NCBI RefSeq assembly: GCF_964275005.1 | Contig: NW_027307674.1 | Location: forward strand, 62,001-126,000 | DNA from: Diadema setosum | Taxonomy: Eukaryota > Echinodermata > Echinoidea > Diadematoida > Diadematidae | DNA length: 64,000 nucleotides | Direction: 5' to 3' | Shown: piece after piece, positions 2,785 through 63,733 of the stretch | Numbering within the stretch: the first letter of the stretch is position 1 | Layout: each line of letters starts with the position of its first letter | The notes under the pieces: generated by a model | What the model was told of the DNA's origin: nothing | The model's database searches: none | What the model saw: only the letters and a program-made list of their open reading frames with translations | Translations under genes and position numbers: made by a program

Positions 2785-2955
2785 CGTTGAGGGCATAGTT
2801 GAGCGAGTTGATGAGACACGATTTGCCAGCAGCAATTTCACCGAAGAAGACGACGTTCACCTTTGATGGTATTTTACCGCGAAGACGTACCTTGTATCTC
2901 GCCATTCCAGGAGCGTAACTCCATATTTTTCGTCGAAGTTTGTTTCGTTGATAAC
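2785..2955 (-). CDS. Gene A P-loop exon of IFI44-like GTPase
   Basis: 171 nt, phase 1 to 1, acceptor CTCTCAG, donor G|GTAAGG. Reads YQRNKLRRKIWSYAPG and later VNVVFFGEIAAGKSCLINSL. The Walker A octet GEIAAGKS is identical to that of gene B. The YKP motif before the P-loop is changed to YAP here. Confidence 0.87.
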
Positions 2956-5900
2956 CTGAGAGTACAAGCCGAGGTTTTAGATTGATTGGTGAAATCCAAA
3001 TAATGTCTAATATGTGTATGACAAAGTATTGCTTACATACCTTGATAGCTTCTCGTTATTTATTGATCTGGATGTATTCAGCAATCTATGAATCGGTGAA
3101 AAGTCAAAATCATTTGATTACGAATGCAAGTGCTAAACAAAACAAAAACAAAAACAAACAAACAAATGAGCAACAAAGTCATTGTTACATTCCTGGTCGG
3201 CTTTTTTTTGCAAATATTTTCAATTTTCAAAAACGATTAGATTAACGACTAACGTACGTACTTTTCTCCTTCAATTACTTGAATGCAATCGTAGTGGCAA
3301 TATCGACCATGAGAGCATGAAATAACAGGACTGCGTTATGACAGCCAACGGCCTTCTCTGCTGATGTCAAAAGTAAGACGAGACTTCTTTATGTACCAGG
3401 TTCGCAACCCAGACTCAGTCGACGGCAAGTCAAGTTCGCATATTCTCATACGCACAGACTCGCCCAATCCGATCGATAAATCGCTAAATATCACAGTGCA
3501 TTGAAAGAATGTCTCGCTATTCCAATCCTCTCACGTGTATCTAGCTTACATGACGTGGCGTTTGACCATCAAACGTTATGCCCTAGTGGATCTGCTAATA
3601 AATTTGAAGTTTCTGTCACTGTTTTTTCTTAAAAAGCCATGACACTACAATAATGTAGATACTGGTCATGTAAAAGAAAAATAATCAAAGATTAATTTGT
3701 TTGATAATATATATCTAATCTGAGCTTGACAGCTTCTATCTTTAATAAACAACCTCGATCACTTCATATTCATGTCTGTAGTAAAAAAAAATAAAAATCT
3801 GTGAAAGTTACATACATTTGAAATACCATAATGCTTTCTGTAAGAAAGCATGACTACGCTGGTGTCTGAGAATAGTGTGGCACACAGAAAGTTTACATCA
3901 TTGCACATAAATAGATAGAGGGAAAATCTAGTCCAAATATTAGCTAGTGTGATAAAAAAAGAGTAAAATGTTACGAGTTCAACGGTAAAAGTTTTGACTG
4001 AAATTTAGTGAAAATCGGATATTTGCTAATTTCCTCAAAACTGTTCTGGTACAGTGGATACGAAAATGGAAATGAGTGAGCTAACCATGTCAAAATCTCA
4101 CAATTTTCCATTGATATTGATTCTGAAACATTATGTTATTCCTGGTGAAATAACTTCAGAATAGTCATCAGTTATATATTCGAAAGAAAAACAGGAAATT
4201 TCAAAATGTTATGCATGTACAAACGATACAGTTAGTTGTGAGGGGTGACAGGCTCGCCTTGCCATTTGAATATTAATGTAGAACTGCCCCCCCCCCCCGG
4301 AGAAACTTCAAAATGTCCTAACTTCTTTATTTTTCATCCAATTTAAATTATACCGTTCTGTTAGACCGTAATGTCTTACTCTTTCTTATCAGACTAAGTT
4401 ATATCTGAACTTGATTCCCTTTTTACATCCCGTTTAACTTTTTGAAAATTTACAGAAATACAGGATGGATGTCGAGAGAAAAGTGGCTTTTGACTACAGA
4501 GCACAATTAAGCACATTTACGTGTAGACCCCAAAATTGAAACAAATTTTGTTGCTGCTGATGAATATTAATACCTACTTGCGCGCCCCGTATTAATACCA
4601 GAAGGACCAAAGAAAAAAAAATGAAGAAAGAAATTACATTACGTACAAAATTAATAAATGCCATTATTCATGTAAGGACCGTACAGGATATGTCTTTAAG
4701 TTTTATGTAATCTTACAAAATTAAATGTTCCATACACTCTCAAAAGTTGTGTGTTGTTTACTGTTTCTCCGAAGATAAACCTCTTGTAAGGAGACAATCA
4801 CGGAACCGGAGAAGCTCTGTCGGCTTGAATGTGTTCACTTGCGTTTGCGTTTTGCGTTTGATAATAATGTAGACCTACGGTTGGGATGATGTGGCAGTGA
4901 TTGCTGTTAAAAAAAGTAAACTCTTGAAAATTAATGATTCTTCACCTTCTCATCATTTGCTCAAGGACAGGAACCTTCCGAATTAAATGAAAGGCAAGTT
5001 CCACTTCGAGCCTCACTATTGAGAAGTATATTATGAAGGCTTATGTGCTGATGTAACACTATGAATTTGTCCGCAATAGCTGAGAGCCATGCCTAACGCT
5101 CAATCAATACACTACAACCCTGATCTCATTTCTAGTCAGCAATGCAATTACTTGTCACAACCTTTTATTATTACTTTTGTTGATATCACAGAAAAACCAA
5201 GAGTAATATGTTTTATAGGAACCCCCCCCCCCCTTCCCGACTCTGTTTAAGACGAGGACCGCAGACTTCGGAACAGTTACAAAATATAGAGCCAGTAGCT
5301 CCATATCTGTATTTTTTTTTCCAGCTAAAAATACGTCTGTGTATTGATACATTGATATGATTTGGTGTGTTTCAAATAAATACAGCAATTTTGACGCGTT
5401 TTTTAACACTTACCCCTTAAAACAAAACTTTATTGTTATTTGTAATACTAAAATTAATAATAACAGAAACCTTGTTTAATTAACTTCGTTCTTGTTTCAG
5501 AACTTTGTATTCAAACAAGATGTTTGAAAAAATAAATGACATGATGTATAGTTTCACTTCGACATGACTGAGGGGAAATAAAAGTTAACAAGATGAAAAT
5601 TGGTTTGTAAATTATTCAAATATGAAAAAGAAAACCAAAGTAAAACAAAGTGATCCAGAACAGAGTGACCGGTGCGGGAGGGGTTGGCTTGAGCGGCCAC
5701 GTTTGCTATTGTCAGTTTTTCTTTTTCTGTGAAATGCATGTGGAGTGAATATGCATGCAAATGAATGCTGTGAAAGATTAGCTGGTACCCGATCAACTGT
5801 TGTAAGTCCACTCAGAAGGACAAGAAAACGAGAGTGAAGTACCTTTTCCTGTTACCTCAACCGCTGCTGCAAGGGGGTCGAAATTAACATGAATGGTTAG

Positions 5901-8900
5901 GGACACCTTGATTGAAAGTTAGTGGTTATCAACAGAGCGGTATCAGCACCTTAACATTGCTCGGTTCCAATGGTGTTGAGTGGTCGGCTGTCATCAATTT
6001 GATTTAGGTGTAATAGCTTTAGTTACAAAAATAAAACCTTCACACCTTTCCACAGAAATCGTCGAGCAAGCAACAATAGGATGAAAACAGCGCATGGTAC
6101 ACCAATGGCCAGTCCGATGATGAGACCCAAGTTTTCACGTTTTCCTGGAAGTTTGGTACCTGCAGATACCATTGAACCATATAATTAGTCCATTACTTCA
6201 TTTACATGAATCATTGGATATACAGATACCCTTTGTGCATTCTGTGTAACGAGTAACAAAGCAAACTTAAATTTGATAGACTAGAATCAAATTAATTTGT
6301 ACTAATGTTGCGGGGGGGGGGGGGTAACCAAACAGTCGTAAGGCAATCTTTCTTTATTTATGACGAGAGAGGGCGCTATAATATGAATGTAAGAAAGACC
6401 CAAGTCCTTCATTCTTACATTCATATAACATTTAACTCATTTATTTCAGGCACTTCCGGGGGTAATTAGGATTTATCATTTATACACAAGATGAGTCCAT
6501 GCATAAGCTACAATTTCACATGTCAAACTGAATTTGGCCAAAAATTGGACTTGGGTCGTTCTTATATTCATAAATTATAATCAAATGTTTGCTGCAGTAA
6601 ACGCGCAAAGTCACAGTTTCCTTCCCCTCACATAATATAAGAATAATTCATGCCAAAATACCTAATTGGGATGAAACTCCTAGTAACTGACAAAAATCAA
6701 AGTTTCTGTTTTGTTTTCCATGGTCTGAGTTGTTTTTCTCAGAAATTTACCTAGTTTTAGCATAGATATAGTTTAGAAATTAGTCATTTCTTTAAGAGGA
6801 CTGCAAACTACAAACCCTGATGCTTTCAAGCAGTCAACCCCCCCCCCCCACGTCCGATAACTTTGAGTCAGTATTAGTATAATAAGTTAAAATGCTCGTG
6901 TATTTCAGTTCGTAATATTTCCTTGTTTACATTGCTGTTATTTTGTAACGTTGTGTGTATTAAAATGTTTTATAGCAATAATTCAAAAAATCAAAATGTA
7001 ATCATACCATGCACCAATAGATTGTCATACAGGTTACCACTGACGATAAAAATGTTAGTCCGATGTTGTTACAAAACATGCTATTTAAATTCATCATTTT
7101 CTACCACTCATGTTCTTCTAACTGCCAGAAAATAACCATTGCCCTTCATCGAACCAAAGAAACACCAATTATTCAGTATTTTGAGCAAAGCCACAAAAAG
7201 AAATCATGGACAAACATACACGGTGTTGTGTGCCCATGTTATTTATCATGACCATGATGACTATAATCTCATAAACTTAAGATTTAACTTGTTTATCTGA
7301 ATCAATGAGGGGGCAATTAGATAAGTAGTTGCTATATGCACTGATATTAGTCGGAAACACAAGGTAATCAACGTTTCAGGAACCTGAAGGTGGAGGCAGA
7401 ACAGTGATTTCAGCGCTAGACGTTCCATTTACAGATTCCCCGGTAGCCGTGCACATGAAAGTTTGTTCAGTCTCTTGTTTGGCTGAAACAGTGATTATCT
7501 CCAACCTCTCGTATGTGTCATCAGGGAGTAGTGTCTGTTGTGAAACCACGGAATTCAGTGTCTTTCCCGACTCCTCTGTCCAGAGCATGGTAACGTTAGG
7601 CTTGAATCCACTCACGACACACGTAAAGTCAATCGAAGAAGTATTCAAGGGAGTTTGGTATGTACAACGGCTTGGATTCGGCTGCCCTTTGTCGACGCAT
7701 TCCTCGATTGCATGTTGAGATGCCATTGCTGTGGAAAGAAGAAATTGTATTTGAAAAACATTCAATTCCAAACTTTGTTGCCGCCCCCCCCCCCCCACCA
7801 TAACACAAAAACACACAAACAAATATGCGTATTTGTGACTATTTTCATTTTGTCAAAAATTTCTAAGGCATGAAAAAAAAAAATAATTTGCTTTAACTGG
7901 CCTGTTGATACGATAACAATGATAACATTTTGTTGAAGTCGAATCACTCTGGCGCGACTTCGTGATCTTTTCACCGCAAGGTTGTCCTAATGGTTTATGC
8001 AACAGTGAACTATCTTGGAAAAACTAGTTGCACTGGTCAAGTCAATTTTATCGCCCCTAGATGGACTCATCCGTGACATAACACTACCACAGATGCCAAA
8101 GTAGCAGTATTGATTCCTTTCAAAATGGCTTTTCCAACTGCCTTCACGTTTGACATGTGATAGGTGGTTTTGTGATTTTCCTCATTGACAGAATCGATGG
8201 AATGACGAATAGATTATTTTGCAGAGCTTGGCTGTTAGGTCCTTATAACAGATATCTTATTCCTATTTGCCATTTTTGTAAATGCCGATTTTCACTCATT
8301 CTTTGGTAGTAGGTAATTCCATTTTCATGTGTCGTCCAATATCTAAAGCATAAGTCTGAATGCAAAGTACAAAGATAAACTGACAAAAAAATGTGTTTGT
8401 ATCAGATTAGGTAGGTGACTAATATTTCCAGTCCATGATCCCATATCAACAGCGGAGCAGAAGAATCATTTGCCTCACAAAGACAAGTTAGAACTAAAAA
8501 AAAAAAATTTAAAAAGGAAAACAAAGGAAAACATTTTCCATGCTTTGTTTGTGGCATTTTGTTGGTCAGAAATAACAACCGGGTCCGCAGTCGTTGATTA
8601 TTGATGCCAATTATAATCAATGATCTGCAGTTATAGTGATCACGCAACTGGCTTTTTGTAACTTTGTATTTGGAAAGCCCATGAGGTGGGTAGTATACGA
8701 GCAATAACTCACAGCTCACAGTCACGCGGGAGGAATTAGAGAAATTCTCGAAGGTCTGAAGCACCACTTGGCAGATATAAAGACCCTCATCTGCTACTTC
8801 CAGGTCTGTTATGAAAAGGTTGAAGTTCTCGTCGATGTCGAACCGTTCCTCCATGCTCACGAAATTCCCGTCGTAGAATGCCTTACTCGTCGACAGCTCG

Positions 8901-9371
8901 GGATTTGACATGCTCTCCTTGACCCAGTACACAGCAAGAGGCTCATCCTTGAAGTCGCACGGCAATTGGATGTCTTCCCCTGTCCATCCATGGATTGAAG
9001 GGGCCGTGTCTATGACTGGGACTAAACGACAGGAAACGTTTATAATATGACGTGTCATTTGTGTCTGCTACAAGAATGATCCATGGCACAAAGAAGGTTC
9101 TGTGAGTAACAGATAAATTAGATAATATGTTACGTGCATATACTTATATTTATGACTGGGATAATGTGCACTGTGTTCATCCTGCTCAAATGATTATCCA
9201 ATGCATTCCTTTTGCTTTTATATCAATTGAATATTTCTAATAATCTTTTCGATGTTTGCTCAAATGAAGACTGATGAAATATCTTAATTTAGGTATTTTT
9301 CTGTAATCTCATACCAGTTGGTTATGGTGCAGGGGTGAGTACAATGCTATTTACAGCTCTGAAGAAAGTGG

Positions 9372-9405
<34 letters not shown>

Positions 9406-12400
9406 TAATAAAATTAAATATTTGTTTAAAAAAAAAAACATTTGAATCCCTGGTTCTGTTTTATCCCCTGGCAAGTATGTAAATGGATTTATGAAACGGT
9501 TAATTTCTTTTGGAAAACACAAGTGGAGTGGGTTAAGTTCAAAGTTTGCGTTACCATATTCCGTTGTTGCAGATGATGTGTGATGTCGAAGCAGTAGGAG
9601 AACAATATAGCTGGTATGGTTAAGAGCAAGTTCATAAATTGCTTTCCATAAAGTATCATGTTATCCATAATGATTATTGAATGATATATCGTAAATTTTA
9701 TGTCTAATACAGTTGTACCAGAGAGCTATTTCATTGTTGGTCAATGAGGATGAACATTAGGGTCCATTCGCAACTTTCCCTAGAAGGGTAATGAAATTAA
9801 ATTGTTTCGCAATTTTCATCCACAAAATTCTTTCCCCAGTAGGTCCTTCCTAATGTGTCATGACAACAACAACAAAAATTACTTACTGGTAACCGCCAGA
9901 TTAGTTGAATTGAATAGAATTTCGAAATCTTCCAACATCACTTCGCAATAGTAGCGACCCTCATCTGCCACTTGCAAGTTGGTGATGACGAGACTAAAAT
10001 TCTCATCGATGTTAAATCGTTTCTCTTCGCTCGCAAAGTACCCATCGAAGAATGAAGCTTTCCTTGTCTCAACTGTCTGATTTGAAATGCTCTCCTTCGT
10101 CCAAAACACGGCAAGAGGCGCCTCCTTTGAGTGACATGGCAGTCGGATGTCTTCCCATTTCCATCCCCGAAAGGTGGGGACAGTCCCTAGAACTAAGGCT
10201 AGACAATGGGAGAATATTAGTAAGATGAGTTCGTTCTTTTTATTGATGCATAGTGCTTGTAAAGTCAACATTTGCTGATGAACCTGCCTAATAGGCGAAC
10301 AGAGTTGGCAATGTATGTGTTTTTGTGGGCAATGTATGTGTTTTTCGTTTGAGTTTTTTTTTTCTCCTTTGTCTCTTCGTTGTTTTTTTTTTTCCTTTTC
10401 TAACACTAACCTAACAATATTACCTTGGTACTTTTATTCTCAATATTGTGCGTGTTTCAGTTAAGTTCAATATCATTTGTAACCTTTGATTTTAAGAAGT
10501 GGAGATGGCAGTTAATTCTGACTATACATGCCCAGAACATTTTGATATTTCAGTCAGCAACAAACCAATAAATGAACAGTGTATTGATTAGATCGGACTC
10601 CTTGACAATGGATTACAGTCAGAACAGTTTAAAAACACTGAAAACGTTAATTCCTTCGGTGAAACAATGTCAAAAGTAACGGCTGGAATTCTTGAATCTA
10701 TATAGAACCAAGTCCTCGAAAATTATCCTATTTCTACATTCAAAATGAAACGAGTACTGATTGAAATAAATGATTGAACTGATTGTTGTGTCAGTACTCC
10801 ATGACATCTGTTTTACCCTACAGATGGGTGGGTGTAAACGACACAAGATGACAAGTCATTCTTCTATTTGTATTGTTTTTAATGATTGTCTTCATTTTTT
10901 TTTCCACTAACCCCTTTTATGGTATTTTGTGGTGTTCACACTCAGGTTTTATCAATTGTGCGTCATTAGAGTAATTACACAGGGCTTTTTCTTTTTTCTT
11001 TTGAATAATTCCCTTCGTCTACGCCAACTTCTGTATGTATGTCAGTCTCCATGGTCTCGTATCTTTTAAAGCGTGTATTGATTTGTGTATGTGTGCTACT
11101 TGTACATGATTTTTGTGACGTCTATTGTAGTCCAGTGATTTATCGTGTATTATGTACACAGGGCTCCCCTAGAAAGCAGTTAGATGACAGAATAAACAAA
11201 TGAATATCTAAATAAATAAATGAATACACCTCGATAATCTCGCTTTACTGCTTTATCTGTTGATGTGTTATATGGTGTATGGGGGTAGGAGTGATCCAGA
11301 GTCATGTGCCTAGTGCCAAATGGATTGATTACTTGAAGAAGCATGAAATACTATAAACTTTGATATTAAAGCCAGCAGTATCATTCCATGTCAATCGGTA
11401 TCATATTACAATTTTAGAATCCATTGTTATCAAACGTTGGGTTTTCGCATTTTATAGTTTTCCTTCCGAAAGAGGGGATGCAAGTTATACCAACTATGCA
11501 TACTTACCAGATTTTTGTTTTCAATATTATCGCAAGACAGTGTACTCTGATAGTGAACTCTGGAAGAACAACGCCATGTCGTGAGTTTTAAAGTAATTCT
11601 AGTGGGTGTAAACATTTCTGCTGATGTATAGCACTTCGAGTTCTTAGGTATTTTTGGTTCAAGTATACAAGTGATAAAGAGAAAATGTATTTCTTAACAC
11701 GAGCTTGGCTAATATTTTGATGAACATTCCATTACAGAATATGTTTCATCACGGGAAGACATATTAAAAAGAACAAGTTAATCTGGTAGATCGACATTTC
11801 AAGATTATCAAGCTTTTTTTTTTAACAATAGGAAGATTATCAATTCACTTGGTCGAGAGGAAGTTTTATTCAAGTTCTATGGATACCTTGATAGATACCC
11901 CCCTCCCCCCTCCATATCAATGACATAGGCCTAATTCTTCACAATCTGAGTGCATCCGTGCATATTCGCTATGTGGCCTTTGATACAATTATAGACAGTC
12001 TACTAAGGTCGCTTGAGTCACATTGTGTCGCTTTTACGTCTGTAACACCTTGTACCGTTCATGACAATATTTCGGTCCAAACATGCTAAAAGTTGCATTC
12101 ATTCAGTTTCCGTCATGACATGTGCGGGAATCGAAATGAGGGTATTGGCGTAAATTATGAGATGAGTTATGTATTATTTATGTACGTAGTCGATATAAAA
12201 CAGATTATAATTTGGTTGTGTTACTTCTTTGTCGTAGAAGGGGGTTGCGGGGATTGAGAGAGATTTCGTGAATTCTATACAGCAACATGCCTACATTTGG
12301 GATAAAAGTGGGCTAATGTGTATACCCATCATTACGTTTTAAGATACTAATAAGTCCTAAATGAAATGAATCACACTCAGAAGAGTCTCGTCTACGTCCA

Positions 12401-13459
12401 ATAGCCAGAGAATGCTATGCGTCATACAACCCATACTACAAGTAGTGTGCTACTCACTTTTGTTTTGTTTACATAAAAAATTTCATAAGGCTATCTTTTT
12501 TTTTTCTTCTTAAAAAGAACTTGGCAAAGTATCATTCCTCATTAGTAATTGAAAGGATCATTTTTTTCTGCATTTTCTTTCCATTTGTGTCTTTGTTTTT
12601 ATGCGTGCATTGTATTAGGGCCTAGCCAGTAGGCCTACCACCACCTATGGCACTAGTATATATTTGCTATGACTGCTATCTTCTATGAACATTTCTCACA
12701 TAACGCGTTGGGACCAAAGTTCATGTGGCTCTTATAATAGCTCGAATGCATGTACCAATATCATACATTCAATGGTTTTGGCAAGCAAACACGACACCCT
12801 TGTATGATAGAGGCTCGTTTTTATTTCTGTGAGAAGCAAACGGGGTACCCTTTCAAGCATGAAGACATGGACGCTGCTTGTGATATTTGGTTTGAATCAA
12901 ATCCAACGGACTTGTGAGTGACTGTCCCTACTTTTTCTAGAGTGGAAGGGGAACACAAATTAATGACTACGACAATGTAAAACAGAGTTGAACATTGAAA
13001 CACATTATTCATCTTCACTCCCAATCTCTACACCGCTTAGGCCTACGTGAGTCACGACGGAAATGAAATTTTATAAAAATGCAACAATCCATTTTTATAC
13101 TTACACTCAATGAATCTGAACACACATTCCATGATCCAAATGCATGACTATTGACAGGTAAAGAAGCAGTAACATTAGCAACTGTTCGCGAACTGGCTAT
13201 GTAGCAGAACTGATATCAATGAAATTTTCATTTACGCAAATGCCTTCGTAGTAGATATTTGTTTGTTATAAAATTCAACTGTTGTTAGCCGATAATCAAA
13301 ATTATTTTCCAGCGTACTATTCTTGCAAATGTCAGAAGTGGTCTCGTCGTTATGCAAATCCAAACCTGATATTCACCTCTTACCTTCTAAAACGGGACAA
13401 TAGTCCACGGAAACAAGAACTACTAGCAGCAGAACGCGGTAAGCGTAGGCTCTATCCAT
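2785..13459 (-). CDS. Gene A: Ig(V)-Ig(V)-Ig(C)-TM-IFI44-like GTPase receptor, 3' end outside window
   Basis: Coding exons in order: 13384-13459 (signal peptide), 9887-10198 (V-set), 8713-9021 (V-set), 7384-7728 (C-type), 6046-6159 (TM), 2785-2955 (P-loop). Every junction is phase 1 with AG/GT borders. The later GTPase exons (G3, beta strand, 68-nt, G4), present in genes B and C, must lie left of base 1 if the gene is whole. Compared with gene B it has two extra Ig exons and no recognised linker exon; TM to P-loop splicing is still in frame. About 440 residues are encoded up to the P-loop donor. A type I membrane receptor is predicted; its ligand is unknown. Confidence 0.8.
2956..6045. other. 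Gene A intron between TM and P-loop exons
   Basis: 3.1 kb. Holds one MITE copy (about 3915-4425) and poly-C runs near 4290 and 5223. A 24-nt segment at 5843-5866 with AG/GT borders and phase 1-1 could be a microexon (AVEVTGK), but it has no homologue in gene B. No other exon was found. Confidence 0.5.
3915..4425. mobile_element. Palindromic MITE, family 2, copy 2
   Basis: Left arm carries GTCCAAATATTAGCTAGTGT; the right arm carries its diverged inverse (AGACTAAGTTATATCTGAAC). Same internal order as 1185-1794, with a poly-C run inside. Ends are approximate. Confidence 0.65.
6046..6159 (-). CDS. Gene A exon 5: transmembrane segment
   Basis: 114 nt, phase 1 to 1. Reads TKLPGKRE and then the helix NLGLIIGLAIGVPCAVFILL, followed by ARRFLWK as a basic stop-transfer. 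Acceptor TCTGCAG, donor G|GTGTGAAG. Homologous to the gene B TM exon. Confidence 0.83.
6377..6580. mobile_element. Short TIR element in gene A intron
   Basis: Inverted ends: ATGAATGTAAGAAAGACCCA on the left, GGACTTGGGTCGTTCTTATA on the right. About 200 bp, non-coding. It lies between the TM and C-type Ig exons. Confidence 0.6.
7384..7728 (-). CDS. Gene A exon 4: C-type (C1-like) Ig domain
   Basis: 345 nt, phase 1 to 1, 114 codons. The core reads IDFTCVVSGFKPNVTMLW and later FMCTATGESVNGTSSAEITV. The C-x-V-x-GF-x-P-x-V-W pattern is that of C1-set domains, although C2/I-set cannot be excluded. Two extra cysteines near the start (EEC and SRCTY) may form another disulphide. NTS, NVT and NGT are possible glycosylation sites. 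It ends in a PPPS hinge joined to the TM exon. Confidence 0.82.
8713..9021 (-). CDS. Gene A exon 3: V-set Ig domain 2
   Basis: 309 nt, phase 1 to 1. Contains DIQLPC, VYWVKE, RFDIDENFNLFITDL, ADEGLYIC and NSS. Similar to domain 1 but diverged, so it is an older duplication within the gene. The open frame continues past the GTGAGT donor to 8402, but that part has no Ig character and is intron. Confidence 0.87.
9375..9403. repeat. CA microsatellite
   Basis: Uninterrupted AC dinucleotide run in the intron between the two V-set exons of gene A. Confidence 0.95.
9887..10198 (-). CDS. Gene A exon 2: V-set Ig domain 1
   Basis: 312 nt, the same length as the gene B V-set exon, phase 1 to 1. Marks: DIRLPC (first Cys), VFWTKE (Trp), RFNIDENFSLVITNL, ADEGRYYC (DxGxYxC with the second Cys) and NST near the end. 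Donor A|GTAAGTAA. The most conserved V-set copy with respect to gene B. Confidence 0.88.
10199..13383. other. Gene A first intron
   Basis: 3.2 kb between the signal peptide and the first V-set exon. I see no exon or clear repeat beyond simple A/T runs and a polypyrimidine stretch near 11900. Confidence 0.45.
13384..13459 (-). CDS. Gene A exon 1: signal peptide
   Basis: ATG at 13459, 25 codons reading MDRAYAYRVLLLVVLVSVDY plus CPVLE, with donor G|GTAAGAGG in phase 1. The hydrophobic core VLLLVVLV fits a secretory signal. It splices in frame to the first V-set exon 3.2 kb downstream. Too short for ordinary ORF calling, but the phase and donor agree with gene B exon 1. Confidence 0.72.
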
Positions 13460-21292: not shown

Positions 21293-21710
21293 GCGCTTCT
21301 TCTTCTTCTTGCATATGAGGCAGCGGCAGCTAAATAACGTCCCTCAGTTGTTGTAGCCAAGTTACAGTCTCAGGAGTAGGGTGTGTCAGGTCCATGTTGT
21401 CAGGAGGGCGGAGATCAGGGCACTCACTCAAGATGTGTTGAGCAGTCTGTTCTGGTGCACCACACTGGCAGGCTGCTGACGGGCGTAGCCCCCACCGATG
21501 CATGGCTGCGTTGAAACGCCCAACTCGGGTTCGAATCCGATTTAATGACACCCACTCCCTCCTTGGGAGGTTTGCTCCTGGGGGGACAGATGTATTGGGC
21601 GTGACAAGGAGTTGGGCAGGTCGTTGGGTGTCTTGCCAGCTCAGTGACACTTGCTGCTTGCAGATATGCTGTAGGTTGTATGACTTCCAAGGATGATTTG
21701 CCATTAACCT
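21293..21710 (-). mobile_element. LINE 3' end (reverse transcriptase C-terminus), 5' truncated
   Basis: A minus-strand frame ending at 21330 reads LPRREWVSLNRIRTRVGRFN, MHRWGL and CQCGAPEQTAQHILSECP. This is the C-terminal zinc-binding tail common in jockey/CR1-like LINE polyproteins. It is followed by a short 3' end with a GAA-type repeat tail (near 21293). The rest of the element is absent, as usual for 5'-truncated LINEs. It sits inside the 4.7-kb TIR element, so it inserted later. Confidence 0.75.
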
Positions 21711-27039: not shown

Positions 27040-27272
27040 TTACAGAATCTTCTTCTTGCGGTGATAGATCGTTTCATCACAAGTCTGCAGAGCCGACCAG
27101 AGAAATTTTAGATACTCCACGTCTTTTTCAATGTCTTCATCATCACTCATTGGGGTGTAGTTTTCAAACATCCAAATTTTTCTCTTGCCTGCTGACCCTG
27201 ATATCTCATGACAAACAGCCTCGGGATCAGCATAGTCTTTTTTGTGAGTTATCACAACTAGTGGTTCTGTGC
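27040..27272 (-). CDS. Gene B exon 9: GTPase G4/G5 region and stop
   Basis: Phase 1 entry after TTTTTTAAG, 76 codons and TAA at 27040. Contains LVVITHKKD (strand plus G4-like motif), MFENYT and KDVEYLKFLWSALQTCD. The last corresponds to the C-terminal part of IFI44-type GTPase domains. It ends RKKKIL, about 24 residues earlier than the gene C homologue. No clear AATAAA was seen in the first few hundred bases after the stop. Confidence 0.87.
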
Positions 27273-30200
27273 CTTAAAAAAAGAAACAAGAAGAAGAAGT
27301 AGGGAAAATTCCATAAAATCACTACAAGCAATATGCCACACTTAGATAATATTTGTACATCTCTTACAGAAACTGGAGATCCCGCATGTGACCTTTCTAA
27401 CACAAGGAAGAGGGATAATTTTAGAGTAGATAGCGTTAGGCCAGAAAGAGGCTTGTTGTTCAAACAAACAAACAAATTAACAAACAAATAAACAAACAAA
27501 CAGAAATGCAACAAGGCAAGCAGCTCTGTGGAGGCACTGATGGACAATACAGCTTGAGGAAAACAAGTGTTTCCAGAATTAATTGCTTGATTGTTTGTTC
27601 TAAGGGAAGGTTTGAGCCGTGATTGGTTTTGAAAGCTGCTACCTATTCTAAAGAAAAATTTTTGTTGTAGATCACAAATGAAAAAAAAAAAAAGTTTGGT
27701 TTGGAAGAATCTACAGATAGGTGTCAAAAATTGACAATAGTGTGTTTGATTGGTTCCAATTGTATCTCTCAAATCATCTTCAAATCATTCGAGGTCAAAA
27801 TACATTTTCCTTCGTCTTTCGTTACGTTTCGTTTATTTCATTTCCAACACACTGTAATTACAACATTTGAATACACAATTCTATAACAATTTTAAGACAA
27901 GGGGAGGGGAGTGCTAAAAAGCAGATCTTGTTGGCTGCAGTCCCCTTATTAAAACTATAGTTACAAAACTGTTAAAACGAGACAAAGAAAGTAAAGTAAG
28001 ACAGATATATATTTTAGATATTTGTCTCTTTGTATTGGTCTTCGTCAATTTTAAGTGCTGTTTGAGCGACTGAAGATAATCAAGAACTAAAAAAAACTAT
28101 TCAGAGGAAAGAACTGCATGTGTCGTAAAAAAAAATCTGTTGACAAAATAGACAAATATTTCTGTTACTGAACGAGGGATTACTTGAATGCGTGTTTAAC
28201 AGGTCGAGCCGGCATTTGAGTAAGTTATCTGTTTCACATAAATGAATTATGATTTCTTCGATGTGTTTAGCAACTGCAATGTACCTTAATCTACCCAACT
28301 GAAAAACGAGAAATGATTTCCTGTGTCCTGTGTTGTAAGTTAAGTCAAGCTAACTAAAGGTAACTTTGACCAGTAACGCTGTATGCAATATACTCTTTAA
28401 TTTCAATGTCATTATAACTGTCAACATTACAGAAAAAAAAAATATTATAGATGACTTCCAAGAAACTGCAATGTCTACTTATTGTTATACTAGAAGTTAC
28501 CATTTGTTTGTAAGGGGAGGCATGTCTATTCAGCCTATTATATTTTCTCCGTGTGTGTGTGTGTGTGTGTGTGAGTGCATCAAGGTTTTGACATGTATAA
28601 GTCAAGATGTATTCTTTTTTAAAATCCATACAGTGCGCCTGCTCAACGTACTTGCCTCTTTGAACACTGTTGAATACAAATTTCACGTATTTTCGTCTGT
28701 TTCTAATAATTTTCGAGTAATTCAGATACAGAGTGTCTATTTTGTTTCATTGCCGTATTATCATTTACCTTAACCCAACATTTGTTTTTCCTTCTTCGTA
28801 TTTAGTTCAAATCTCTCATCAGACATTAGATGTTTAGTCAAGTCTATCGTGTTTATTGTTTTATGTTTGGATAAAATGCATCAGGTGATGCATTTATTTC
28901 AAAATTCATTCTTTATTCTTAAGTCTTTTTGGTATTCAAAATGTTGGTTGCAGAGCCTTGAAGAAAGAAAAGACGAATATCTTAAAGCTGAATTAGAATG
29001 ATGACACCTAGGAAGTCTGAATACGTACCGAGATAACGCTTTACCATGTTGCAGAATGTTTTAATGAAGTTCTTCCCGTCTTTTTCCGCGTCTGGTCTGA
29101 AAGTATTCAGAAATATTTCCAACATCTTTGACATGAAGTTTTCTTTACGTTTTTCGTGTGAAAAACACGAAAAACAACACTTCCCAAGAGTAAAATTAAT
29201 TTTAAAAATTTTATCATTCATTGAATGAAAACAAATACGTAGATTAGATATCATTAACATGAATAGCTAATATTGGCTATCATGTTTTTCATTGGGAACA
29301 GTATGGTTACTGGTCGAATCAAATCATGAATTCATTGAAAAACAAAAGACATTGTACACGACCATTGTACTAATGATGGACACCAAAAATCACTAGAGTG
29401 AAATTAAAGTAGATGCAATGAAATGCAATACGGTAGCATAGACGCAAATTAGCAGAAAAAAAAAAAACCAGAAACAAAAGAAAACAAAATTACTAAAAGA
29501 TCCCTAAAATATAGGCCTGCTTAACTTAGCTCTCAATAACTGATGCAACAAACATTCGTGCTTATGTTTGGGTTAAGATTCAAAGAAAGTTCTATAGCTC
29601 CCCCCCCCCCCCCCAAACCTCTCTGTCTCTCTATCCTTGAAGGGAATAATTTCCAAATAGAAATAAATGTATTTCTGTGACTGGTTTATTATGTTCTTCA
29701 TTTTTTTTTCTTTTTTACTGTAGCAGCCCCCTTCCCGTCGTTCCCCGGCTCCTGCATGAGAGGTATGTGTGAGAAAGTTTTACAAGGCAACTGATTTGTG
29801 AAATAATGAAGACTTGCGTAGATACCAGAGGGAGAAAAGGATGATGTCATGGTCACTTCGAACGTCATTTTAGTAAATAACACTGTTGTTTAAAATACGT
29901 TCAACGCAAGAATTGAATTACTCTCTCATTTATCGTGAAATGATAAAACTTGTCTACCGTCCTCATCAATACAAATCATTGTGTTATAATCAAACTACTC
30001 TAACAAATGGAATGTGAACTGATAATATAAATGCTGATAAGTTCACTGTCTGAAAACGTGAAATAAAATATCTCACCTTTGACGATAAACAAATACAGCA
30101 CAATGACATTCTTCTTCCTTTCTTTTGACTCTTGTCTTACTAATTGCGCGGAATATCCCATCTGAAAATAAGTCAGAAGTAAGAGGAAATACAAATGACT

Positions 30201-53131: not shown

Positions 53132-53306
53132 CCTTTGACCTCTTTCAAATTACGGAATTATAAATTGTATACGAAAAAAAAAAGAATAATAAAACAAACT
53201 ATTAAAAGGCTATCTGACGGGCAGTTTTGGGCGGTTAAGGTTACTAATAGGTTTACCAATAACACATTATGCTTTTAGGAAACGTTGATATACACCCAAT
53301 TACAAC

Positions 53307-53608
53307 TCAATGTTCAGCAGAACTAGATCCGGCCATCCTGCGAAACCACTCCTTCCATGTTTCTCGAACAGGCGTTTCTCGCTCTTTGATCTGGCGTTGA
53401 TAGATCGTGCGATCACAGATTTGCAGAGCAGCCCAGAGGAACTCTAGATAGTCCACGTCCTTCTTGACGTCTTCTTCATGATTTTTAGAGGTGTAATTCT
53501 CAAACATTAATACCGTTGATTCACCCAGCGTGTCAGATATCTCCTGACGAAGACTCTCAGGGTGAGTGAATGAGTTCTTATGGGTTATCACAATGATGGG
53601 ACTTGTGT
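53307..53608 (-). CDS. Gene C: last GTPase exon with extended tail
   Basis: 302 nt from a TTTCCCCAG acceptor to TGA at 53307. Reads IIVITHKNSFTHPE, MFENYT, KKDVDYLEFLWAALQICD, then TIYQRQ. About 24 further residues (including RETWKEWFRRMAG) are absent from gene B. The G4 place reads THKN, against THKKD in gene B. Confidence 0.86.
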
Positions 53609-56600
53609 CTGGGGAAATTAAAACACAAGGAGAAAGAGAGATATACAAAAATGCAGCTGAAACGACGAGCCCCAATGTTCGAAATTACAATTGCTGACTC
53701 AAGAGATCTTATATTCTGATAAGCCTGATTACGCCTGTTTTATTCCTTTCCCTTCAGTATTCTATTGTGTCGTACATTTCATTTCATGTGACATTTTATG
53801 TAATAAAGTGGGACAGTCAAAAGCAAGTTTAATCACCTAAGGAATCGTAAAAAGTAGTAGACACTCTAATGTGAACTCGAATTTGTATTTTATTATTTTA
53901 AACAATATGGTGATTCTATTTAGCATACACACACACACACACACAAAAAAAAAAATCTGTCATTCGAATCACTTTTTCAGCAATGCCCATAATGAGAGTC
54001 GTGATTAAAATTGCACGGTCTCCGCACTTGTGAAAACAGCCTTGCTTGAAAAAAAAAAAAAGTCTTTGGTCTGTGTCCATCATCTATCACGTTCGTTTCG
54101 ACCAAACCAGATCCACAAGATTTCTCATGTCTGCTTCATGTCTGGTCCTTCTTTGTCACAATGATGCATCTCCTCTTTCATGTAATATGTTGTTTTCAAA
54201 GTCTCTCTTTTCTTACGATACTTTAATTTTCATTAGATGCTGCTAAACCAACAAAATCAACATAGAGGTGACGATATATACAACAACTCGAGCACACAGA
54301 AAGAGCAAACCTCCGTCAAGCAGCCAGGATTGAAAAATCGCCATTTCGGAGGCAGTATCTTCAACAAAAATAAAGAGTTATGGAGACATCTACGCAATAC
54401 ATTTAGTGAAAGGCTGATAATACATGTAGATTGTTGAGTTATTGGGAAACTAAGCTTATGTCTTGATGAGCCACTTTGACCTATCACCTTTGATGTCATG
54501 AACCCCAAATTGAACATTTTCTTTCTTTCTTTATTATATACACAAAGTTTGCTTAAAAATCCGATTATCCTTACATAAGTTCTTGAGAGATTACACTGTC
54601 TTTATTGACTTTGACCTTTACCTGATAGTCCCATCACCTCATCACATCATTCTTTTCTTACTTCTCTGCTACTACCCCTGCAAGTTTGGTGAAAATCCGG
54701 CCATCCGTTTATGAGTTATTTGGGGAATTAATTCCATGCCCTTTTTGCCGTTACGTCATTTGACCTTTGACCTTAGGACCCCCTAGAATTGTTTCTTTCT
54801 TGCCTCAGTATAAACACTCAAGGCAAAAAAAAAAAAAAAAAAGAAATGAGGAAACAAACCCTCGCTCATCCGTTGTCGAGTTGTCTCGTACACAACAAAC
54901 AAACAGGCAAAAAGATAGACTCAAAGACCAACATACGGAAACGAAAACATTATCCTCCGCAAGCCGTAAAGGCTTGATGATCTGTCACTTGGTCTACTTC
55001 CACTTTTGCTGATACCGGTTAGTATCAACCCAAAAGGTCTAATCCTGTTTCGTCCACAACCAGTTGTCTAGCAACCTCCCTACCAGTTCGTCTACTATCC
55101 ATTTAGTCCCTCGCAATTTGGTGTATCACATTATCTAATCACCTGACCAATCACCGTCTAACATTCAACTCGATAATTAACATGCCACGATTGTGGATCT
55201 TATACTTACAAAGATTATCCCTCACCATCTCGGAGAATCTTCTGATGAATGTGGTCGCAGCATTTCTCGCGATATCACTGAAAGAGTAAACCATGTGGAT
55301 ATCTACTAATGTTTGCATTTCAAGTATTTTCATCTACTCTTTTTTTTTAAATATCGACATTCCTTTACATGGCACAGACTCGATAACTCAAACTGACAAT
55401 GATGTAATTACCACGTAACGCAAGTTTCCATTTCTTTACACCAAATGGGCACATGTGATATGACTGACAGTCTTGATTTGAACCGCTATTTAGCATTCAT
55501 AAATGCAATGTGCTCGATGTAGCCACAGCTGAACCGCTTCGGGAATATTTTTAACGGCTGGAAGAAAAATATTAACATTAGAATTGTTATGGGAATTAAG
55601 ACAAAGAGTTAGATTACTCAGTCGAAAAAAAAACAACGAAGAATTAATGATACAATTCGTTCAAAAAAAAGTTATGGGAAATACCTCGCATAAAAAAGTC
55701 ACGGTGAAATTGTCGTTAGTAAAAACGTCAGGGAAAATATTGAGTTTCATTTAATGATGGTTGGAAACATGTCATGGGTAAAAATATCGGAGGCAAAGAT
55801 GTCGATAATGACTGAGAGCAATAAGAACGTGCAAGTTACATTTTAATCTCCTTGAGGAAATTGCAGCCTCTAAACAGTAACTTTGGATTCATTGAACCAA
55901 TAACTATAAACATGCATCATGCATGACCTAGATTTGTTTTGACAAGAAAGCAAACGAAAATAAAGAACATTTCTAATCCGTCCGTCAGGTCACATATATA
56001 TTTCTCCTTCGTGGACTACAAGCTTTAAAGGAGATAATTGTTTTTATTTTCATAACCATTACTTTTTTTTTCTGCATAAAATATTTTACCTTCCACTTTC
56101 ATCATTGTTTCAATTCATTAACGTTACAACTGAAACAAAATTATCTTAATCAAGCAAATAGTTAGTCCTTAGAAGCTTCCGTCATTGACGATATTATCAA
56201 CTTAACACATTTTTCTCTGAACTATAATTTCTGTTACAAAAATCATTCTCTTCCGATGCTTTACCTCTTTTCGATTTTTCGTTCAGATATTATCATGCTA
56301 CATCTTTTATGATTGTTTTTATGTTGTTGTTGTGCTATACAGTTTCACTACTACATTAATCTTAACAACGTTTAACCCCTTGTCGTTTTGATAGTCACAT
56401 TTTCTCCCGATGTTTTTTTTTTTCTTTCCAACATTATTTTTCAAATCAAATTTTCTTCTGTAACAGTTTTACAATGACATTTATTTTTTCTAAGTGACAT
56501 CGTTACCCTTGATATTTTGTTTTACACGGTTTTACACGGCACCGCGTCATTGACGTGACTTATCTCATGTGAAGAATGCAGCTTGATGCCTTTGCCAACT

Positions 56601-57117
56601 TCTTTTTGAAAAGGTATGAAGGACGGTGTTAAATATGAAATTATGCTTTTGGATTTGATTTGTACCGAGTTATACTTTATATCGAACTCTTGTCACCAAG
56701 GGACCTATCACATGCAAGTAATCTCTCACCTGTCACGATAGACAAACACAGCGCAATGACATTCTTCATCCTTGCTTCTTTCGACACGTTCTGAGGGATT
56801 TATGCTGCGTTTCCCGTCTGCGAATACAACCAAAATCAATGAAGAAAATAACCATTATAGTAGCTGGCATTATCGTCATTAACCACCTTCCCATCCTTTT
56901 AATGCACCTGAATGTACGTATTCTGCTTCATAGTCCACTTTTTTTTTTCTGCCCAACTTCTTGTCTCATTCTTTTAATCTTGAAGTCGCAACTTTAGAAT
57001 GTACGACGGCAGCAAAATTATAACGTGCCATAGAACAAGACAGCATTACACACGTATACCTTGCGTGCCATGCTTTTTCATCCAATTCCCTTTCAAATCT
57101 TGTTATGACATTATAAA

Positions 57118-57162
<45 letters not shown>

Positions 57163-57613
57163 AGTTTGGTCGCAAAAACCGATAAGTCCACATTTGCCAA
57201 ATGGAGATATTTGCGATTAAAGGTCAAGAAAAATAAAGAGAATAATAGGAAAAATTTTGCTTCTTTTGACCATAACTTGAAAAATGTACCTTTATATGAA
57301 GTGACTAATAAAATATAATTTAAAAGGTATTATTTTGTACTTTATGACAGAGACCGTACTTCAAAATCTTCAAAAATGGACTTATCGGTTTTTGCGAACA
57401 AACTCTTCATATATAGTCGAGACAATGTAATGATGACAAAAGATGTCGCATGAAGCTGGCTGTTACGAAGCTTTCGACCTTGGTCTTCCTCCAAGGTCGA
57501 AAGCTTCGTAACAGCCGGCTTCATGCGACATCTTTTGTCATCATTACATTGTCTCTCGACTATAATTCTTCCTAAGATGACAGAGGCGTACGGTACGAGT
57601 ATCACCATCATCG

Positions 57614-57671
<58 letters not shown>

Positions 57672-60600: not shown

Positions 60601-63600
60601 TTGCACTGTATATCACCATTGACGCGCGCGCGGAATTTCAACTTTAACGGACCCGTATGACGTCATATTGAGTCAGATTGACTTGAAACTTGGTAGAAAT
60701 ATTCCATGACATTTTAGGCATCCGGTAAGTGTAAAAAAACGGGAAATTTCTATTGCATATGAGCTGTGTGTGCGTATATGCGCGCGCGCGTATGCGTCCG
60801 TCCGATTTTTTCAATTTTTCAAAAAATGCTCCAAATGGTCTGAAACGTGTGCGACAAAAAAAAAAAAGCTCGATTGGAGGATACAAATTTTTCAACGCGC
60901 GCGTACGCGCACGTTTTAAGGGTATAGATGAATTTTGAGAATACGAGTAGAATCAGCTTGACTTGAACTATATGTGACCGTGCACCTCAAAACGAACATA
61001 AAGTCGCACACACTGATTTTGCGTGAGGACTGAAAATAAGTGAAATGGGTCAACCTAGCCGAACTTGACTTTCTCATGTTTTCTGAAAGAGCAACTCTTC
61101 TTTTACATTATGCTAAAATTTGGAATCATAAAACGGGCAGGAAAGTGTGTTTTTTTAGCAGTTTATCTCGAACATTTTTGGTAGAATAGTGTGATTAGGT
61201 GTGTCTTTAGAATCCCTTTTTCATTTCCGAAAAACCTTGTCCACACTCTTCACTTTCAACTTTGATGACTTTTGAAGGGATAGTGCTACTGCTTTGAAAG
61301 TTGGCATTAATTATGGACAGAATGTGTTAATGAGGCATGCTTAATTTCAGTTTAATCTGATAATCCCTTCATTGTTGTTACTCTGGTGGTTTACTTCCTG
61401 TTTTTTGTCCCATTCATCGCACAGCCAGCACGGTTTGGTAAAGATTAAGCGCTTGAATAGACACTGTACTTCAGAGCCTCTTTTCTCAGTTCACACTTTT
61501 CCTGAGTTTGTGCTTTCTTTCCAATATTTAGATAGGTTAGGAGAGTCCATTTGATTTGAGTTATACATCATTTTAAAGCTTAAAGTCTGCTCTTTCAGAA
61601 TATGGTCTTAACTAAAAATTCATGTCTGGCGACGTTTTGTTTGTTTTGAGGTGCAGGGTCACATATGTGACGTAAATTTCATTGAAAAATTCCATTCCAT
61701 TAATGAGATTTGCATGAAAATGTGTTTTCATATAATGACGTCATAGTGACGTCACGGTCGACTGATCACTATGATTTTATAAAATGTGTCGTCTTTGGGA
61801 CATGATACATATATGGCATAAATTTGAAATTGATAGGAAGAGCACTTTCTGAGCTAATCGATACACAACTTTTGAGGAGAAATAAAGAAGAAGAAGAAGA
61901 ACACCCAAAGAATCAGTACAGATACAGACGGTGATCCGAGAGGATACTCGGATCACCTAATAAAAACAAAAATGGATAAAAATACGTATTGGTAAAACTT
62001 TGAAATTTCAAGAGTGTGACATTTTGAGAGGCATAACTTTGTTCACTCATACATTCATATGCCAAAGTTCATAAAGATATCTTAAGCCATTTCAGACATA
62101 TGTAGAAAAAAAAAGTGAACCTTTTATATTTTCACACTTTTGGCTTTTTTTTCTTTACATTTGACCATGGTCCAAAACAAAAAAATACCTTGACGCATTG
62201 AATACATATGAGTGAAGAAGTGCAATGTCAAGAATTTGACCATGAACTTTTACCTTTATCATGTGCAAAAAAAAAAAAAAAAAAAAAAAAAAACTTGACT
62301 GGCACAACTTTGTTCACTCATTCAGTCATATACCAAATTTCATTAGGATACCTCAAACTGTGTTGAAGTTTTGCTGTCCACAAAACTGAATACAGACGCA
62401 CGAAAGAGCGGACGGACTGACAACCCGAAGACATAATGCCTCCGGCGACACTGTGTGGCGGAGGCATAAAAACTGAGAAAGTTAGGTCAATCCACATATG
62501 TATGATTTGTAGTAACAAAATGTTATTACCACGGTAACATACTTCCTCACACTCACGCGATACTGAAGAAAGAGGCGTCTACAACCGCCATACGTGCCAC
62601 ATTTGGCGTCAATTGCTCAAGAAAGCGAAGGAGTAGTTCAATTCACAAGATGTTGCAACATCTTGTGAATCGAACCGACTGATCGACCAACTGTCGGGCC
62701 AACCGACCTCACAGTAATTGATAAAAATCATACCCTCATACACACTATGTGCATGATTTGTGGGTGGGTAGAATGAATGCACCAAACGTGACCTTGCATC
62801 ACAAAACCAACAAAAGTTGCACATCTTGATTTTACGTAAGAACTCAAGACCACTTTTCATGACTTGAAATCATTTACACACTCCTAACCATCAACTCCAA
62901 AAACTTTAAAAGGATTATGCTACTGCTTCAAAAGTTAGCAGTAATCATGGACAGAATGTATCTATAGGTAATGTTTAATTTCAACTTAATCTGATAATCC
63001 CTTCATTGCTATTGCTCCGATGGTATACATTTATGTTTTGTCCCTTTCATCGCACAGCTATCACGGCTTGGAAGAGATTAAACGCTTGAATAACCCTGTA
63101 CTTATTCAGAGCCTCTTTTCTCAGTTCACGCTTCTCCAGAGTTTACGATTTCTTGCTCTCGTTTAAATTCGTCCATTTTGATTGAGTTATACATCATTTT
63201 AAAGCCTAGATTCTGCTTTTTTCAGAATCTGTTCTTACCTAAAAATTCGTGTCTCGGGTGTTTTTGTTCGTTTTGTGATGCAAGGTCACAAATAGTCCTT
63301 AAACGTCTCATGCAACACTATATTCTGAGAAACGTTGAAATCTTGATCATTGGCTCTACCTTAATGACCTATACAACTGTATACCCCATCACTGCAATTG
63401 AGTCCGGTATACCATAACTGTAGACCTTCGCAGAAGACATTTCACACCTGTTCGTGTCATGATATAATATGATAGGTCGAATTTCCGAACGGACTACCCG
63501 CAATATGTGCTATTAACACAGCTCTTTCGGTCAAGTGCTAAATGTTTACATTAATTAATACTTACTGCACTCCTCCTGAAGTCGTTTAAATATGTGCTCG

Positions 63601-63733
63601 TTAACAGAGAAGTCTTTCATTCCCCTATTGTCGATCAAGTCAATTTTCCCAGTTAATGTGTGATGGAAGCGAAGTTTCGTCATCCCTCCTCCACGTTGCT
63701 TTTGCCCTTCTTCTGTCACAATGGAATATTCTC
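53307..63733 (-). CDS. Gene C: IFI44-like GTPase receptor homologue, last four coding exons; 5' half outside window
   Basis: Exons in order: 63566-63733 (G3), 56730-56817 (beta strand), 55210-55277 (68 nt), 53307-53608 (G4 and stop). Phases (1,1,2,1) and borders equal those of gene B exons 6-9. The P-loop, TM and Ig exons must lie right of base 64000, so an Ig ectodomain is inferred from its relatives, not seen. Motifs: DNRG at G3, EECHCAVFVYRD, ITHKN at the G4 place (no Asp there), MFENYT. A minus-strand AATAAA lies at 52771-52776, about 530 bases past the stop and at the edge of a MITE. The frames are open, so the gene looks functional. Confidence 0.8.
55210..55277 (-). CDS. Gene C: 68-nt GTPase helix exon
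   Basis: 68 nt as in gene B, phase 2 to 1. Reads DIARNAATTFIRRFSEMVRD plus NL. Acceptor CTCTTTCAG, donor T|GTAAGTAT. The match in length and phase to 29029-29096 is the main support for this short exon. Confidence 0.78.
56730..56817 (-). CDS. Gene C: GTPase core beta-strand exon
   Basis: 88 nt, phase 1 in and 2 out, one residue longer than in gene B. Reads GKRSINPSERVERSKDEECH then CAVFVYRD. It shares ECHCAVFVYR exactly with gene B. Acceptor TTCGCAG, donor AG|GTGAGAG. Confidence 0.82.
57161..57408. mobile_element. MITE family 3, copy in gene C intron
   Basis: Matches 31214-31462 over its whole length in the same orientation, with ends GGAGTTTGGTCGCAAAAACC and CGGTTTTTGCGAACAAACTC. It is inserted at the end of a long AT run. 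Confidence 0.78.
57412..57564. repeat. Long near-perfect foldback
   Basis: The arms (about 57412-57483 and 57491-57564) are inverses with only one or two differences, e.g. AGATGTCGCATGAAGCTGGC against GCCGGCTTCATGCGACATCT. The centre is about 7 bases. Confidence 0.85.
57616..57669. repeat. TA microsatellite
   Basis: Uninterrupted TA run in the gene C intron. A similar run at 57121-57158 sits beside the MITE family 3 copy. Confidence 0.95.
59250..60215. repeat. Direct duplication, unit about 560 bp
   Basis: GAAACATTTATGACCTTTGA, AATAATGTACGTGACATGAA, AAAGTCTCAGCTACAACATA and GTGAGCTAGTGCTCGATAAA occur in the same order from about 59260 and again from about 59830. The copies are diverged. Confidence 0.75.
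60973..61664. mobile_element. GTGACC-family MITE in gene C intron
   Basis: TGTGACCGTGCACCTCAAAA at the left and its inverse ending GGTGCAGGGTCACA at the right. Opposite orientation to 18567-19266. Confidence 0.78.
62360..62472. repeat. Repeat end with GCCTCCGGCGAC palindrome
   Basis: ATGCCTCCGGCGACACTGTG and the following TGGCGGAGGCAT form an inverted pair after a GGACGGACTGACAACCCGAA stretch. A related piece (CCGCCACGAAGTGTCGCCGG) occurs at about 25932. Probably one end of an interspersed repeat. Confidence 0.45.
62788..63290. mobile_element. GTGACC-family MITE, shortened copy
   Basis: Ends GTGACCTTGCATCACAAAAC and GTTTTGTGATGCAAGGTCAC, written across the inverted repeats. About 500 bp, with part of the left half missing relative to other copies. 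Confidence 0.7.
63566..63733 (-). CDS. Gene C: GTPase switch/G3 exon
   Basis: 168 nt, phase 1 to 1, two residues longer than the gene B exon. Reads EYSIVTEEG, a Gly-rich loop, MTKLRFHHTL, then IDLIDNRGMKD with the DxxG motif, ending LQEEC before A|GTAAGTAT. The next exon is 6.7 kb away because a transposon cluster fills the intron. Confidence 0.85.

Follow-up and report, generated by a model that had tools for sequence, protein, structure and literature searches.

A tandem family of predicted Ig-superfamily membrane receptors with a GTPase-type domain in the genome of Diadema setosum

AjNLRC4 of Apostichopus japonicus is reported to be an Ig-Ig-TM-NACHT surface receptor (Ig, immunoglobulin; TM, transmembrane) whose extracellular Ig domains bind bacteria; it is Vibrio-inducible and dimerises, and Arp2/3-dependent phagocytosis ensues (PMC8699970). 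Its layout is given as an Ig-like domain (31-132) and an Ig domain (251-353) outside the cell, a TM helix (483-503), a NACHT domain inside (600-757) and a second TM helix (776-795) (PMC8699970). A second A. japonicus receptor of this kind, AjNLR-new, is reported with a reversed topology, and genes uniting Ig, TM and NACHT have been identified in the same species (PMC13133943). In Chiridota heheva, NLRs with an Ig V-set and NACHT in one protein are found among six NLRs with other domains (PMC8913654). The present analysis concerns 64,000 nucleotides of the genome of Diadema setosum (912.7 Mb, 102 contigs), hereafter the window, corresponding to C48:62001-126000 (contig NW_027307674.1). It holds all or part of three genes, A, B and C, in which an Ig ectodomain and a TM helix are predicted to be joined to a P-loop GTPase-type domain.

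Like AjNLRC4 and AjNLR-new as described, the window genes are predicted to put Ig domains, a TM helix and a nucleotide-binding module on a single chain. In a comparison by description, not by sequence, AjNLRC4 differs in having NACHT where the window genes have the GTPase-type domain. The Ig domain of gene B precedes its TM helix, and Pfam finds no cytoplasmic NACHT in it; a cytoplasmic NACHT is found in sister genes elsewhere in the genome. Because no NACHT is found in gene B, the GTPase branch is not a member of the AjNLRC4 type, though by analogy it would work like AjNLRC4 in plan. NLR membership of the window genes was likewise rejected, as Pfam finds neither NACHT nor leucine-rich repeats (LRRs) in gene B. 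The V-set is shared with the C. heheva proteins, for which the accessible part of the report contains no GTPase version (PMC8913654). No receptor combining Ig with an IFI44-type or other GTPase is described in the papers listed from the open-licence literature, as judged by titles and abstract starts. The NACHT branch is therefore known in kind, and these searches brought up no published GTPase version. The first-pass annotation, made from the window's letters, had not recognised the architecture as a named system; the GTPase version was likewise absent from the papers listed, but its sister, Ig-TM-NACHT, is published at least in the form of AjNLRC4 (PMC8699970).

Gene structure and the tandem array

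Gene B (minus strand, 41275-27040) consists of nine exons that join into one frame of 1308 nt, encoding 435 residues, in which the sole stop is the terminal one. All eight introns are GT-AG; exons 7 and 8 join in phase 2 and all the others in phase 1. The predicted product comprises, in order, a signal peptide, an Ig V-set, a TM helix, a short linker and a P-loop GTPase-type domain. A profile check of the product, which the first-pass annotation had proposed, is clear for the V-set (Pfam E 1.4e-11 on the whole protein) and borderline for the GTPase: against a cut-off of 21.9 bits, MMR_HSR1 scores 20.4 on the whole protein and 22.0 on the GTPase half alone. Hydropathy indicates a single TM segment (residues 137-156) beside the signal-peptide region, and a signal-exon scan from 52 to 35.8 kb returned exon 1 alone. 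With a predicted signal peptide, a V-set and one TM helix, gene B has the features of an Ig-superfamily type I membrane receptor. An AlphaFold (AF2) model built on 18 aligned V-sets reached a mean predicted local distance difference test (pLDDT) of 85.9, and the solved structures nearest to it are CD244/2B4, CD166, nectin-1, TIGIT and T-cell receptor V domains, with CEACAM also a neighbour; such similarity of a modelled fold does not tell the ligand.

Three minus-strand genes with Ig, TM and GTPase parts had been proposed at the outset, and the gene B exons, together with A and C being of the same kind, agree with this. A and C are not partial genes, as they had appeared to be; they are cut by the window's ends. 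Gene A, at the left end, has its predicted signal exon, two V-sets, one C-set, TM and P-loop exon inside the window and three further GTPase exons beyond it, at C48:60.5, 56.2 and 52.6 kb. Gene C, at the right end, has its later exons inside (63733-53307) and its V-set, C-set, TM, linker and P-loop exons outside, at C48:139.3-126.1 kb.

When the rest of C48 (200,222 bases) was searched by tblastn with the gene B exons and the C-set and TM of gene A, six genes of the same kind were found, head to tail and all on the minus strand. They share the exon order V, sometimes V2, C, TM, linker (in three of the six), P-loop, DxxG, HC and last exon. This search gave no C-set for gene B and no last exon for gene 6, and it detected the short exon 8 in gene B alone. 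Borders for the joints, AG/GT in phase 1, were found by a script confined to phase-1 borders near the matches, and a few look weak. Chance joining of open reading frames (ORFs) was set aside because the same exon order recurs in the six C48 genes and in C16 paralogues. At the level of gene structure, then, the fusion of Ig ectodomain, TM helix and presumed cytoplasmic GTPase put forward in the first-pass annotation is supported by the gene B joints, the C48 genes and the C16 paralogues. The predicted products combine a signal peptide (in B, and by prediction in A), a single or double V-set, in most cases a C-set, a TM helix, often a Cys-containing linker and the P-loop GTPase-type domain, all on in-frame exons.

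Table 1. Exons of genes B, A and C in the window (window coordinates)
Feature	Position	Strand	Basis
Gene B exon 1: start codon and signal peptide (MWSLMKACARLLLLVTAFVIFVAK), phase 1 end	41203..41275	-	joining of exons and signal-exon scan
Gene B exon 2: Ig V-set	35441..35752	-	Pfam PF07686 E 2.2e-12; AF2 fold
Gene B exon 3: TM helix	34604..34732	-	hydropathy
Gene B exon 4: juxtamembrane linker GCDWNPCWRRP...	33049..33117	-	DNA-pattern matches in genome
Gene B exon 5: GTPase P-loop exon, GEIAAGKS	31601..31777	-	exon joining and GTPase alignment
Gene B exon 6: DxxG exon, LIDTCG	30454..30615	-	exon joining and GTPase alignment
Gene B exon 7: ECHCAVFVYRQ	30077..30161	-	exon joining and C16 paralogue
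Gene B exon 8: short, DGKNFIKTFCNMVKRYL	29029..29096	-	exon joining and C16 paralogue
Gene B exon 9: VITHKKD, FENYT, C-terminus, stop	27040..27272	-	exon joining
Gene A predicted signal-peptide exon (MDRAYAYRVLLLVVLVSVDYCPVLE), phase 1 end	13384..13459	-	sole candidate of scan 26.5-10.3 kb
Gene A first V-set exon	9887..10198	-	Pfam E 5.2e-10
Gene A second V-set exon	8713..9021	-	Pfam E 1.2e-12
Gene A Ig C-set exon	7384..7728	-	Pfam C2-set_2 and C1-set over cut-off
Gene A TM exon	6046..6159	-	exon search and border script
Gene A GTPase P-loop exon	2785..2955	-	exon search and border script
Gene C DxxG exon, LIDNRG	63566..63733	-	exon search and border script
Gene C ECHCAVFVYRD exon	56730..56817	-	exon search and border script
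Gene C likely counterpart of B exon 8, 68 nt, DIARNAATTFIRRFSEMVRDNL, AG/GT borders	55210..55277	-	by eye; no tblastn match
Gene C last exon: VITHKN, FENYT, C-terminus, stop	53307..53608	-	exon search and border script

Outside the window, two C48 genes (184361-184701 and 160614-160963) have a tail rich in Pro and Lys that finishes in WCNVM and WCSVM respectively, which is not how B and C end. These ends resemble CaaX prenylation motifs, and in such genes a lipid may anchor the GTPase end. The introns hold a repeat of about 200 bases that looks like a short mobile element, with copies in both orientations at 31264-31464, about 34300-34560 and about 57170-57400 of the window; the copy at 31264-31464 also matches the C16 paralogue, inverted, and the other two were found by eye. 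Between genes B and A, an ORF at 21330-21734 with a weak zf-RVT match (E 0.018) is probably the end of a reverse transcriptase of the long interspersed nuclear element type.

Genome-wide copies and the NACHT branch

A genome search with the GTPase half gave at least 130 matches; 150 of 199 candidates were scored, so that counts are lower bounds. The 53 rows covering the P-loop part were taken as P-loop exons, one broken P-loop-to-DxxG row with two stops being among those left aside. At least 53 P-loop exons are thus present, of which 29 form a cluster made up of 23 at C16:24.0-25.75 Mb (24.05-25.70 Mb) and six on C48, which may be an unplaced piece or another haplotype of the C16 cluster. The others lie at C16:36.2 Mb and on C15, C6, C3, C7, C8 and C12. 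For the V-set, the best 150 of 335 candidates, on 17 contigs, were used. Among these matches a same-strand V-set was listed no more than 30 kb upstream for 24 of the 29 cluster P-loop exons (within 10 kb for 20 of them), and the C48 exon search found one for a 25th, at C48:191177. The tandem family proposed from the window therefore extends to six genes on C48 and at least 23 more P-loop exons on C16, and these matches support a receptor family larger than was first seen. On C6, ten P-loop rows of this GTPase type occur at 22.67-22.89, 30.18-30.29 and 38.96-39.32 Mb, with no V-set among the matches listed within 30 kb upstream.

A paralogue at C16:25.52 Mb, L034, keeps eight exons of gene B (2 to 9) in order and with matching lengths, one joint being probably shifted by a few bases. 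When the two loci are aligned, the exons alone align, at 75-85% nucleotide identity, and the introns have diverged. The ratio of non-synonymous to synonymous substitution rates (dN/dS) between B and this one paralogue is below 1 in each of the seven exons covered (exon 7 was left out): 0.23 for the V-set, 0.31 for the TM exon, 0.56 for the linker, 0.24 for the P-loop exon, 0.15 for the DxxG exon, 0.41 for exon 8 and 0.35 for the last exon. A closer copy of gene B, at C16:24.31 Mb, also reads through.

The same kind of outer module stands before a different effector on other chromosomes. Eight V-set loci elsewhere in the genome were read (L035-L042). Five of them (L035, L037, L039, L041 and L042) have the same C-set, TM and linker exons followed by one long open exon, and L036 has C-set and TM exons, after which a similar long exon begins. 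L038 and L040 show a V-set alone in the 10 kb examined; by coordinates a NACHT match lies about 14 kb downstream of L038, and L040 is without a partner. All four long exons scanned encode NACHT (PF05729, E 1.4e-24 to 2.1e-23). Borders fitting a joint V-C-TM-linker-NACHT gene are available in five loci, phase 1 alone having been searched and several exons offering more than one choice. Downstream of NACHT, L042 carries ORFs at 5881-6192 and 7975-8160 that read like repeated leucine-rich units; the two stretches scanned gave no Pfam match up to E 0.01. If these units are LRRs, the receptors there would be Ig-TM-NACHT-LRR proteins, in contrast to AjNLRC4, which is said to be without LRRs.

The linker exon allows the two branches to be compared across the genome. 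Its DNA pattern (GC-x-WNPCW) has 93 genome matches and the reversed control pattern has none. In the GTPase cluster and on C48, all 15 linker exons are followed within 6 kb by a P-loop GTPase exon and none by NACHT, among the best 150 of 216 NACHT candidates listed. For the 78 linker exons elsewhere, no GTPase exon is listed within 6 kb, and a listed NACHT match lies within 3 kb for 62, within 6 kb for 68 and within 15 kb for 72. None of the best 150 NACHT matches falls in the cluster or on C48, and 103 of them have a V-set or linker upstream among the matches listed. Conversely, of 115 V-set exons that lie outside the cluster, 86 are followed on their own strand, within 30 kb, by a listed NACHT match, as against two when the strand is flipped; of the 29 without, two, at C16:36.2 Mb, precede GTPase P-loop exons by 12 and 20 kb. 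Judged by these exon arrangements, one kind of ectodomain is followed, at the same position, by either of two different nucleotide-binding modules.

In a tree of 18 V-sets, the GTPase-type (10 rows) stand apart from the NACHT-type (7) with one label change, L040 falling in no group; the dividing branch has support 86/86 and occurs in 87% of bootstrap trees, which is not strong. In this unrooted tree the separation fits one effector exchange, in either direction, followed by separate expansion. V-set exons at C25:858666-1028417, C4:39112382-39147530, C15:3644851 and 5064644 and C1:26563135 have neither NACHT within 30 kb downstream nor a GTPase exon near, among the matches listed; a third effector or secreted forms are possible there.

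Nature of the GTPase-type domain

The P-loop GTPase domain, which we take to be of the TRAFAC kind, was aligned in six members (B, L034, A, C, g1 and g2, with gene 6 left out). The G1 (GxxxxGKS) and G3 (DxxG) residues are invariant in all six, and all six match MMR_HSR1 at E up to 0.1. Other families were considered. Profiles of IRG (Pfam IIGP, E 0.045), AIG1 and septin were each matched by one of the six members (E 0.01-0.045), and membership in any of them was set aside for want of a significant match. Among 177,635 distinct PDB sequences, the top scorer with a profile built from these six members was Irgb10, an IRG protein, with a non-significant 16.9 bits (E 0.035).

An IFI44-like GTPase had been proposed at first. 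By eye, the likeness to IFI44/IFI44L lies in the order of motifs: a Y-x-P stretch, GxxxAGKSxxxNS, an HC-hydrophobic stretch, TH, NY and a helical end. The human IFI44 GTPase half, in an approximate sequence, scored 22.0 bits against the six-member profile, above both Irgb10 and the best of 5000 shuffles (8.2), with 15.6 of these bits coming from the P-loop stretch. A second comparison with an approximate sequence, in whose alignment the row of the C3 relative L044 was empty, gave 25.1 bits (best shuffle 8.4). The similarity is modest and mostly at the P-loop, and a genome search with the approximate IFI44 string gave no match. The IFI44 family has an N-terminal TLD-type domain; Pfam detects no TLD in gene B, and the genome's eight TLD matches (C9, C16:29.57 Mb, C4 and C22) all lie outside the cluster. 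To our knowledge, IFI44 has neither an Ig ectodomain nor a TM helix. The C8 relative L043, with no V-set upstream among the matches listed, shares the YKPG...GxxGxGKSAFINS start; its score stays slightly under the MMR_HSR1 cut-off, and in the PDB it matches a mixed set of GTPases, with MMAA the best at E 0.01. A firm IFI44 name was set aside, given scores that are mostly P-loop, the empty genome search and the assorted matches of L043. What is left of the proposal is a kinship weakly suggested by the approximate sequence, and the domain is GTPase-type, possibly of the IFI44 kind.

Alternative explanations and biological meaning

The receptor architecture taken by itself can be held with high confidence. 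We also consider it probable, with less assurance, that the window genes belong to a tandem family of type I membrane receptors with a nucleotide-switch uptake mechanism, for which membrane topology, ligand binding, nucleotide-dependent clustering and uptake as the output are what we infer. The Ig ectodomain, on coelomocytes, would bind microbial surfaces or modified self, and the ligand would cluster the receptors. Clustering would allow nucleotide-dependent dimers or oligomers of the tethered GTPase domains to form, and the switch might then drive a local membrane and cytoskeletal response, for example uptake of the bound particle, by analogy with the NACHT sister AjNLRC4.

Several observations weigh against this reading. 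Five of the 29 cluster P-loop exons have no V-set among the matches listed within 30 kb upstream, and for another four the closest listed one is at a distance of 12.9-29.4 kb. The linker exon was not recognised in genes A, 2 and 6, and 10 of the 78 linker exons outside the cluster are without NACHT among the matches listed within 6 kb, six of them having none within 15 kb. The G4-like motif reported in the first-pass annotation, unlike the P-loop and DxxG, is not conserved: in this region (N/TKxD), which reads THKKD in B, THKNS in C and THESD in A, T-H alone is invariant in the six members, K and D not being conserved. GTP specificity is not assured because the motif is degenerate, and some members may be pseudo-enzymes. 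Over 15 pairs, mean identity is 48.6% for the effector halves and 53.7% for the V-sets; the proposal that the V-set is the more variable part was therefore rejected, and the effector diverges as much as the V-set, which is not the pattern of a constant signalling part beneath a variable sensor. The TM and linker exons of B and the C16:24.31 Mb copy differ by eight non-synonymous changes and one synonymous change, too few to judge. Finally, the output of AjNLRC4 need not carry over to GTPase receptors because NACHT and this GTPase are different domain families.

It could be argued that the Ig/TM genes and the GTPase genes are separate neighbours duplicated as a pair, their in-frame joint being fortuitous or a matter of minor splice forms. 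The introns between TM and P-loop exons are indeed about 0.7 to 3.1 kb long, and GTPase relatives on C3, C6, C7, C8, C12 and C15 are without a V-set within 30 kb upstream among the matches listed, so that the domain may occur alone. This is nevertheless very unlikely in view of the in-frame AG/GT joints in the C48 genes and two C16 paralogues, and of the linker exon, which lies between the TM and P-loop exons here and elsewhere precedes a different effector. Invariant P-loop and DxxG residues in six of six members and the low dN/dS of the exons that carry them (0.24 and 0.15, B against L034) also make it unlikely that the GTPase half is a decoy or bait, that is, a membrane-tethered copy of a cytosolic immune GTPase attacked by pathogens and not a working enzyme; the degenerate G4 motif, the effector half diverging as fast as the V-set and the relative L043, without a V-set among the matches listed, are what such a decoy would explain. 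A role in allorecognition, cell adhesion or development instead of defence would suit the adhesion molecules CD166, nectin-1 and CEACAM among the structural neighbours of the V-set. It too seems improbable beside the large tandem arrays with nucleotide-switch effectors and the published sister AjNLRC4, which is described as Vibrio-inducible and bacteria-binding (PMC8699970).

On the preferred reading of a tandem family of defence receptors with a nucleotide switch, membrane Ig-NLRs, recently described as single cases, are extended to a large repertoire. A bolder proposal, put forward tentatively and perhaps more doubtful than not, is that of a plug-in system in which one Ig-TM-linker cassette, at more than 100 loci, carries either a NACHT ATPase or an unrelated GTPase, the GTPase members being single-pass immune receptors that oligomerise under the membrane at the point of contact with a microbe. 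If so, these receptors would be the ligand-gated counterpart of cytosolic interferon-induced GTPases, and a GTPase possibly of that defence kind would stand directly behind a surface receptor in an animal that is not known to have interferon. The locus would then represent a natural experiment in receptor engineering, in which the same sensor is coupled to two nucleotide switches in one animal and the contribution of each switch would be directly comparable.

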